Source: Rhodoferax sp. AJA081-3
GTDB lineage: Bacteria > Pseudomonadota > Gammaproteobacteria > Burkholderiales > Burkholderiaceae_C
Reading direction: 5' to 3'
Length of the DNA: 64,000 nt
Assembly (NCBI RefSeq): GCF_017798165.1
Contig: NZ_CP059068.1
Coordinates: forward strand, 372,001-436,000
Notes under the pieces: generated by a model
Seen by the model: the letters and a program-made list of their open reading frames with translations, nothing else
Told to the model about the DNA's origin: nothing
Databases searched by the model: none
Translations under genes and position numbers: made by a program
Shown: in pieces, positions 48,959 through 50,931 of the stretch
Numbering within the stretch: position 1 is the first letter of the stretch
How the letters are laid out: each line of letters opens with the position of its first letter

Positions 48959-49483
48959 ATGTTGACAGAAGACGGCAAACACCTCTACGTCAGTTATGAC
49001 GAATACCACAACCTGATCGAAAAACTAGCGATCAAGATCCACCAGTCGGGTTGGGAATTCGACACCATCCTGTGCCTGGCCCGTGGCGGCATGCGCCCAG
49101 GTGACATCCTGTCGCGCGTGTTTGACAAGCCCCTGGCCATCATGTCCACCAGCTCTTACCGTGCCGAGGCTGGTACGCAGCAGGGCAAGCTGGATATTGC
49201 ACGTTACATCACCACACCCAAGGGCGAAATCGCCGGCCGCGTCTTGCTGGTCGACGACCTGGCCGACTCCGGCCACACGCTCAAAGCCGTTGTGCACCAG
49301 TTGAAGCACGACTACGAGCCCATCAGTGAATTGCGCAGTGCTGTGATCTGGACCAAGGCCATGTCCACGTTTGTGCCAGATTATTCGGTGGAATTTCTGC
49401 CCACCAACCCGTGGATCCACCAGCCCTTTGAAGGGTATGACGCGATGCGTCCGGAGCAGTTGATCCAGAAGTGGAGCGTGTAG
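48959..49483 (+). CDS. Purine phosphoribosyltransferase-like protein
   Basis: The 174-residue type-I PRTase has the PRPP-binding motif VLLVDDLADSGHTL and the hood-side loop LARGGMRPGDILSRV. It resembles xanthine/hypoxanthine/guanine PRTases (Xpt/Gpt class). It would salvage a purine base with PRPP to the nucleotide, which fits its place after purA. The start has AGGAGCATCCT upstream. Substrate not determined. Confidence 0.85.
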   Translation: MLTEDGKHLYVSYDEYHNLIEKLAIKIHQSGWEFDTILCLARGGMRPGDILSRVFDKPLAIMSTSSYRAEAGTQQGKLDIARYITTPKGEIAGRVLLVDDLADSGHTLKAVVHQLKHDYEPISELRSAVIWTKAMSTFVPDYSVEFLPTNPWIHQPFEGYDAMRPEQLIQKWSV

Positions 49484-49490
49484 TTTTTGT

Positions 49491-49569
49491 CCTGCCATAG
49501 TGTGCAGTGCCGGGGGCTCAGAGGCGCTTCGCTTGCCAAGTCGCCCCCGACACTGCACACCATGGCAGG
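49491..49569. repeat. Long hairpin 1 of an inverted-loop pair
   Basis: The arms at 49491-49517 and 49543-49569 are inverted repeats of 27 bases with two mismatches (25 of 27 pair). They enclose a 25-base loop at 49518-49542 beginning TCAGAGGCGC and ending CCAAGTC. The left arm begins seven bases after the stop of the phosphoribosyltransferase gene. No T-run follows, so it is not a canonical terminator. The loop is the exact reverse complement of the loop in hairpin 2. Confidence 0.9.
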
Positions 49570-49603
49570 AAGCTGCATTACTGGTAGTGGACAGCCACAA
49601 AAC

Positions 49604-49682
49604 CGCCGCAGAAGGGATAGCGCCAAGGCCGACTTGGCAAGCGAAGCGCCTCTGAGGCCTTGGCGCTATCCCTTCTGCGGCG
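49604..49682. repeat. Long hairpin 2 of an inverted-loop pair
   Basis: The arms at 49604-49630 and 49656-49682 are a perfect 27-base inverted repeat (CGCCGCAGAAGGGATAG... type). They enclose a 25-base loop at 49631-49655 beginning GACTTGGCAAG and ending CCTCTGA, exactly the reverse complement of loop 1. The stem sequence is unrelated to stem 1. It ends 43 bases before the metC start. Confidence 0.92.
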
Positions 49683-49725
49683 CGCCCGCTACGCTACGTC
49701 ACACCCAAAGAGAACGGACTTTCAC

Positions 49726-50931
49726 GTGACCCACCCCACCACCAACCTCATCCACCACCCGTACGTTCCTCCGGAAGGTTTTGAGGCCCCGCAGCCGGGC
49801 GTCTTCAAGGCATCTACCGTGTTTTTCCCGACCGTGGCCGCCATGCGCAGCCGCGAGTGGAAGGACAAAACCGCCTACACCTATGGCCTGCACGGCACGC
49901 CCACCAGCTATGCGTTGGAAGAGCGTCTGGCCACGCTGGAAGGCGGTAAGCAGTGCCTGCTGGTGCCCAGTGGCCTGGCCGCCTTGGGTCTGGTAGCCCT
50001 GTCGCTGCTCAAGAGCGGCGACGAGGTGCTGTTGCCCGACAACGTGTACGGCCCCAACAAAACCCTGGTCGAAGGCGAGTTGATGGGCTGGGGCATCACC
50101 CACCAGTATTACAACCCCATGGACCCCGAGGATCTGGAAGCCCAGATTTCCAGCCGCACCAAGCTGGTCTGGCTGGAGGCTGCGGGTTCGGTCACGCTGG
50201 AGTTTCCCAATCTGGTGGAGCTGGTGCACATCTGCCAGCGACGCAAGGTCTTGACGGCGCTGGACAACACCTGGGGTGCAGGCCTTGCCTTTGCCCCGTT
50301 TGATCTGGTGCCAGGCGCCAGCCCAGCGGTGGGTGTGGACATTTCGGCCCATGCCCTGACCAAGTACCCCAGTGGTGGTGGCGATGTGCTGATGGGCAGC
50401 GTCATCACGCGGGATGCCGGTCTGCACCTCAAGCTCAAGCTCACCCACATGCGCTTTGGCCTAGGTGTGGGTATGAACGATGTGGAACTGGTGCTGCGCT
50501 CTCTGCCGAGCATCGCACTGCGCTACCGCGCCCACGACGCCGCCACACGTGTACTGGCAGCCTGGGCGCAGACCCAGCCCGAGTTTGTACAGGTCTTGCA
50601 CCCGTCCCTGCAGGAGTCGCCAGGCCATGCCCATTGGATGGCCCTGTGCGGAGAAGCGCAGGGCAGGGCAGCAGGGCTGTTCAGTGTGATTTTGGATGCC
50701 CGGTTCACCCGGGACCAGACCGATGCATTTTGTAACGCACTCAGGCTGTTCCGCCTGGGTTATAGCTGGGGTGGCCCCATCAGCCTGGTGGTGCCTTACG
50801 ATCTGGACAGCATGCGTTCGGGTTGGCCCAGCCACTTGCTGCCCGGCACGCTGGTTCGTTTCTCGGTGGGTCTGGAAGATGTGGCCGATCTGCAGACCGA
50901 CATCACACAGGCGTTGAACGTCCTGCGCTGA
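49726..50931 (+). CDS. metC: Cystathionine beta-lyase/trans-sulfuration PLP enzyme
   Basis: The 401-residue enzyme of the Cys/Met metabolism PLP family starts at a GTG (49726, MTHPTTNLIHHPYVPPEGF); the frame upstream to 49660 lies in hairpin 2. PLP-lysine is in SAHALTKYPSGG; other family features are YGLHGTPTSYALEERLATLEGG, DNTWGAGLAFAPFDLG-like and SLVVPYDLDSMR. It cleaves cystathionine to homocysteine, pyruvate and ammonia. Substrate is inferred from closest overall pattern (MetC rather than MetB); gamma-lyase remains possible. The twin hairpins lie between it and the previous gene. Confidence 0.9.
   Translation: MTHPTTNLIHHPYVPPEGFEAPQPGVFKASTVFFPTVAAMRSREWKDKTAYTYGLHGTPTSYALEERLATLEGGKQCLLVPSGLAALGLVALSLLKSGDEVLLPDNVYGPNKTLVEGELMGWGITHQYYNPMDPEDLEAQISSRTKLVWLEAAGSVTLEFPNLVELVHICQRRKVLTALDNTWGAGLAFAPFDLVPGASPAVGVDISAHALTKYPSGGGDVLMGSVITRDAGLHLKLKLTHMRFGLGVGMNDVELVLRSLPSIALRYRAHDAATRVLAAWAQTQPEFVQVLHPSLQESPGHAHWMALCGEAQGRAAGLFSVILDARFTRDQTDAFCNALRLFRLGYSWGGPISLVVPYDLDSMRSGWPSHLLPGTLVRFSVGLEDVADLQTDITQALNVLR

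Follow-up and report, generated by a model that had tools for sequence, protein, structure and literature searches.

Paired hairpins between two Rhodoferax genes are one copy of a dispersed palindromic element

The two long hairpins that lie between a phosphoribosyltransferase gene and a gene for a Cys/Met metabolism enzyme (the PRTase-metC locus) in Rhodoferax sp. AJA081-3 are one copy of a dispersed element. Its copies recur at other loci, are present or absent at orthologous sites, form a two-ended unit, have stems that change on both sides, prefer G.T over A.C mispairs on one strand and carry differing apical loops on the same stem. We favour, at a little better than even confidence, the explanation that the pair is an old copy of a non-autonomous REPIN/MITE-like palindromic element that has two different hairpin ends with outward folding strands and was moved by a putative factor. 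The window is the whole stretch of 64,000 nucleotides that was analysed (C1:372001-436000 of a 5.17 Mb genome, G000; G and L codes label genomes and loci), and the features of the locus are as follows.

48959..49483, + strand: phosphoribosyltransferase gene (PF00156), upstream neighbour, outside the element
49490..49517, - strand: 3' arm of hairpin 1 as read on the folding strand; this hairpin forms the left end of the unit (repeat search; model match G000:C1:421489-421571:-)
49518..49542, - strand: hairpin 1 loop, GACTTGGCAAGCGAAGCGCCTCTGA on the - strand, with internal loop GACTT/CTGA and apical hairpin (sequence)
49543..49570, - strand: 5' arm of hairpin 1 as read on the folding strand (repeat search); 26/28 Watson-Crick pairs, the remaining two G.T on the - strand
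49571..49603, no strand: spacer separating hairpins 1 and 2 (sequence)
49604..49630, + strand: 5' arm of hairpin 2 as read on the folding strand; this hairpin forms the right end of the unit (repeat search; model match G000:C1:421602-421684:+)
49631..49655, + strand: hairpin 2 loop, GACTTGGCAAGCGAAGCGCCTCTGA on the + strand (sequence)
49656..49682, + strand: 3' arm of hairpin 2 as read on the folding strand, paired 27/27 (repeat search)
49726..50931, + strand: Cys/Met metabolism PLP-dependent enzyme gene (PF01053), downstream neighbour, outside the element; GTG start assumed

Anatomy of the hairpins and changes in their stems

The sequence and a repeat search confirmed both hairpins in the window, with arms of 27-28 bp and 25-nt loops, each the exact reverse complement of the other. 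The original prediction of two hairpins with the same 25-nt loop in opposite orientation was thus correct, with the arms of hairpin 1 now set at 28 nt and 93% complementarity (26/28). Both mispairs in hairpin 1 are A/C on the + strand and therefore G.T on the - strand, so that all 28 positions of the - strand pair when G.T is counted. The RNA fold of positions 49470-49730 reached -153.2 kcal/mol, compared with a mean of -96.6 (s.d. 4.9; z = -11.65) for 200 dinucleotide shuffles, none of which (0/200) was as low. The 19-nt core of the loop matched twice within the window at up to three mismatches, against 0.04 matches expected from shuffles.

Copies of the element consist of a long stem of 25-29 bp and a loop of 24-29 nt, with an internal loop GATTT/ATGA (GACTT/CTGA in the present pair) and a genome-typical apical hairpin. 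Distant model matches keep GATTT...ATGA beside a long variable stem and differ in the apical hairpin. In an alignment of 49 of 139 hairpins, retained by a similarity filter and oriented by the best-folding strand, the consensus structure had 29 stem pairs, GGC/GCC, GC/GC and a triloop, with 95.2% of cells paired; covariation was 0.859, compared with 0.173 after shuffling and at most 0.155 for slid structures. As this alignment mixes arms of different loci, we give more weight to the count within 15 groups of similar stems, formed by stem similarity rather than by flanking genes, in which two-sided changes were found at 84/400 stem positions. Arms of matching hairpins in different species also change with compensation. 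These results support the selection for structure that had been proposed from the window, and correction of one arm by the other may also be at work.

The apical loop GCGNAGC, in which N is A, C, G or T among the hairpins seen, corresponds to a motif described as a very stable DNA mini-hairpin in an excerpt of PMC4686876; other loop types lack GCGNAGC. We do not take a GNA triloop to prove that the folded form is single-stranded DNA: types T2 and T3 have none, some T5 loops and the G072 loops have lost it, and the count of 15/28 distinct loops with it includes chance matches, for example T1. In L300 and L342 (496) the loops are compound: a further 22 nt resembling a hairpin lie between GATTT and the apical hairpin.

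We then counted mispairs on the folding strand, with stems located by loop sequence alone and arms scored by Watson-Crick pairs only. The 139 hairpins of the present loop type had 189 G.T and 30 A.C, and the 75 hairpins of other loop types had 134 and 10; an earlier count gave 219 G.T and 31 A.C in 151 hairpins. Gene direction cannot account for this bias because the hairpins of a pair are opposed, and part of the G.T excess could come from a mutation bias that depends on how the loop is oriented. Tolerance of G.T fits RNA and single-stranded DNA equally and does not discriminate between them.

Dispersal and the two-ended unit

The original prediction of an element family is borne out, as the loop recurs in its own genome on locus-specific arms. 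The 19-nt core occurs eight times in this genome with 0-1 mismatch, and a covariance model finds ten hairpins at five loci, each with its own arms (421 k, which is the pair described here, 1841 k, 3400 k, 4896 k and 4909 k). Covariance model matches were found in 30/299 sampled genomes of the family and 18/141 genera. The loop pattern at up to three mismatches was found in 6/198 genomes including this one, all six of the same genus, and a scan of named genomes yielded at least 120 stretches with the pattern. Among the matches listed, 75/80 have titles that name Limnohabitans, Rhodoferax, Curvibacter, Comamonadaceae or Burkholderiales/Burkholderiaceae. The arm score was at least 10 at 154 of the 183 loop matches scored (scanned stretches plus other loci), and loops numbered 2-15 per genome in 18 genomes chosen for having matches. 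Three records titled Akkermansia muciniphila (L054, L086 and L092) carry Limnohabitans-type loops, and L054 also has a polA-like neighbour; these are probably mislabelled or mixed assemblies.

For the PRTase-metC spacer, 72 genomes were searched, the gene was present in 68 and 30 loci were read. The pair was found in G000, G003 and G072 only and was absent in 27/30, and these 27 spacers showed no arm-like hairpin and no model match. Beside dcd, model matches were found at 8/30 loci, with a ninth via a pattern scan, and both the pgk and the acyl-CoA dehydrogenase locus had model matches at 1/30; among 16 stretches inspected upstream of acyl-CoA dehydrogenase, the 15 from other genomes showed no unit by eye. 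Some copies sit in frame inside genes: one such gene encodes an MmeI-type methylase, and a fused double-length uvrA gene holds 3-4 copies of one loop type in each of three species (L338, L342 and L344). The best outer motif was present in 39/197 hairpins, compared with 7/197 and 15/197 in controls, and a conserved outer motif was rejected as weak. No clear terminal inverted repeats or target-site duplication could be made out from these counts or by eye at the G541 site.

Hairpins 40-1000 nt apart were inverted in all 64 unique pairs (64/64), with the folding strands directed outwards in 57/64 and inwards in 7/64. Six of the seven inward pairs have a common stem, GACCCGC..., that belongs to a single Limnohabitans locus, where the genes are polA and thrB by eye, and the seventh is L366. 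L416 is an exception with two hairpins on the same strand, and 81/128 loci have a single hairpin. Paired loops were at least 92% identical in 50/64 pairs, for which the yardstick is crude (0.20 of 2,000 random cross-locus draws, mixed genomes), and paired stems were at least 70% identical in 2/64. In G541, two loci share both their left and their right stems, and the homology extends past the hairpins on both sides.

What lies between the two hairpins can vary. At the 4909 k locus of G000 (L019 15914-16750) and in G087 (L041 3613-8170) the flanking genes are similar by ORF similarity and the content between the hairpins differs, with a GNAT gene in L019 and, in L041, a 4.5-kb stretch that holds several other ORFs. 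The hairpins of L360 (1501-2773; G567) are about 1.2 kb apart and enclose a small ORF that is acetyltransferase-like by eye, and those of L189 (1501-2509; G448), about 0.9 kb apart, enclose small ORFs that look like an antitoxin/CcdB-like pair. Within a single Limnohabitans locus, L107, L129 and L063 carry the loop in the opposite direction, with respect to the genes, to that in L109, L115 and L131; the arms are alike by eye, as if the loop had been inverted in place.

Stem descent and loop exchange

The claim that the stems share nothing stands for hairpin 1 against hairpin 2 and falls for other loci, whose stems resemble stem 1 clearly and stem 2 weakly. The best identity of stem 1 was 0.75, to a stem at a non-orthologous locus of another species, which 0/200 shuffles reached; that of stem 2 was 0.667, to a stem elsewhere, which 2/200 shuffles reached. 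Within-genome stem similarity for G077 and G097 rests on 3 and 2 loci only, de-duplication having removed others.

Three orthologous hairpins combined arms that are 50-52/56 identical with inner loops that are 50-59% identical in gapped alignment. The comparisons were the dcd-left hairpin of G000 with G077, G006 with G097, and G006 with both G077 and G097; the flanks of these hairpins match at 77-91%, with no match in one of eight flank comparisons. As judged from these alignments, loops seem to have been replaced on old stems, which is not easily explained by ordinary descent. Because intermediate loops exist (T1-prime, L332), some types may have changed step by step. A genome can also hold a mixture of loop types, with three in G077 and several in G003. 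Loop exchange is the least explained part of the finding. Gene conversion confined to the loop could account for it, as could an incoming copy that takes the place of the old one, or a system that rewrites loops. A speculative version of the last, to which we give rather low credence, is that the apical loop itself is the copied unit and that a putative system rewrites resident loops from another copy, in a form of loop homing into folded single strands. Stems would then descend with the locus and loops would turn over across the genome, a corollary we hold just as tentatively.

Known repeats and competing explanations

In the excerpted description of PMC6006769, REP/REPIN sequences (BIME) are dispersed, mostly intergenic palindromes of species-specific sequence that have two inverted hairpins as their unit and are read as a folded single strand, and the defining mark of a REP is a tetranucleotide, GT[AG]G, on the 5' side of the hairpin foot. 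The present element is similarly dispersed, mostly intergenic and of species-specific sequence, with two inverted hairpins as the basic unit and a folded single strand as the form that would be read, but differs in the length of its stems (25-29 bp) and loops (24-29 nt) and in its fixed internal loop. GT[AG]G was found within the last 8 nt 5' of the hairpin foot in 1/135 hairpins, all of loop type T6, and no model match was found at 30 Y1_Tnp loci (L386-L415, about 1.5 kb on each side). Y1_Tnp was present in 25/25 genomes tested, as a single match in 22, and 10/25 had no loop match. We therefore rejected a RAYT partnership, given that Y1_Tnp also occurs in genomes without a loop match and that none of the 30 loci has a hairpin. 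A short-hairpin scan of four RAYT loci revealed REP-like TTAATTGGG...CCCAATTAA near a single RAYT-like gene in L393 and L400.

The nearest published name is the Beta-proteobacterial repeat element (BRE), an uncharacterised repeat that may be a relative, compared here by description only. The portion of PMC3110155 used here describes BRE as about 90 bp long (75-91 bp for full-length Bordetella copies), GC-rich, intergenic and sometimes intragenic, and reports it from Rhodoferax, Polaromonas, Delftia, Acidovorax and Bordetella. The present element is likewise GC-rich, of similar length, intergenic and sometimes within genes, with an overlapping host range; unlike it, BRE is described in that portion as tandem arrays, and the portion mentions neither paired hairpins nor an internal loop or an exchange of loops. 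Rickettsia palindromic elements, as excerpted from PMC10969869, are inserts of about 150 bp, in ten families, that can lie in frame within genes; by description, they share with our element a palindromic form that can sit in frame in genes, but belong to another phylum lineage. MITEs, in the same excerpt, are short, non-autonomous and present or absent at orthologous sites, as is the case here for presence and absence, whereas our element ends in long hairpins. No Rfam family was found at the gathering score for eight loci, which gave 39 sub-threshold matches at E <= 1 (microRNA-precursor models and one rsmX), and no description of the element turned up in listings of open PMC papers, BRE possibly excepted. 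The earlier remark that it was not recognised as a described element therefore agrees with Rfam and is qualified by BRE. The element resembles a REPIN or MITE in its working, yet lacks the foot tetranucleotide and the RAYT neighbourhood of REPs.

In the mobile-element explanation that we favour, a factor acting in trans would bind the folded single strand and would have moved the units; an endonuclease or a transposase is the likeliest candidate. Its contacts would be with the apical hairpin and with the internal loop GATTT/ATGA. The long stem would need only to fold, so that its sequence could drift with compensation, and the apical hairpin would follow the specificity of the factor, so that related loops would prevail within a genome and displace older ones. 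A kept structure with free sequence, one strand read and two outward ends could be the trace of a factor that binds a folded single strand at both ends. The copy at the PRTase-metC locus has probably settled and ceased to move, and probably does little more than keep two genes apart. No mobilising protein was identified; the candidate examined, Y1 transposase/RAYT, was not specifically linked to the element. The inward pairs, the same-strand arrangement of L416, the many single-hairpin loci and the impure loop types count against a mobile element.

Few copies and long compensated retention also count against mobility and suggest host use. A distinctly less probable explanation, though the first of the alternatives, is that mobility is over and that, after an old spread, the hairpins are selected locus by locus as a host-used structure such as a BIME-like insulator, a terminator-like block, an mRNA stabiliser or a protein docking site. 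In its favour, many Limnohabitans species have long kept the hairpins at the same loci with compensation in the stems, and the positions lie between housekeeping genes (gene names by eye). However, no preferred orientation towards genes is seen by eye, copies lie within coding genes and most relatives lack the element at the compared sites. A simple consensus scan of 49300-49900 also found no terminator-like or sigma-70-like site, in line with the absence of a terminator T-run noted originally.

We consider it unlikely that the hairpins are a regulatory RNA, with loops that either kiss each other or bind an RNA or protein acting in trans. The covarying stem, the invariant loop, the G.U-like tolerance on one strand and the complementarity of the paired loops are what such an RNA would show, but the folding strands are opposite, so that one transcript holds only one hairpin in the favoured form. 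The same opposition, of a G.T-tolerant and A.C-avoiding strand in the two hairpins, disfavours the kissing of loops in one transcript that had been suggested; both orientations to neighbouring genes occur, and the eight loci searched had no Rfam match. Fold-back or template-switch insertion, which would have enclosed a mobile loop in inverted copies of the flanks and was also raised by the original prediction, accounts for a constant loop on locus-specific near-perfect arms within one genome but is very improbable, as empty sites (27/30) have no arm-like hairpins, complete hairpins occur within genes, the stems of different loci are related (stem 1 to non-orthologous stems), arms end at about 25-31 bp and symmetric copying would not give the G.T bias.

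The finding describes a palindromic element of several genera of one bacterial family, with two parts that follow different evolutionary rules: stems stay with the locus, and loops are largely common within a genome and replaceable between species. The spread and uniformity of short repeats thereby become testable, and the copies offer a natural series of folded-strand baits for a partner protein.
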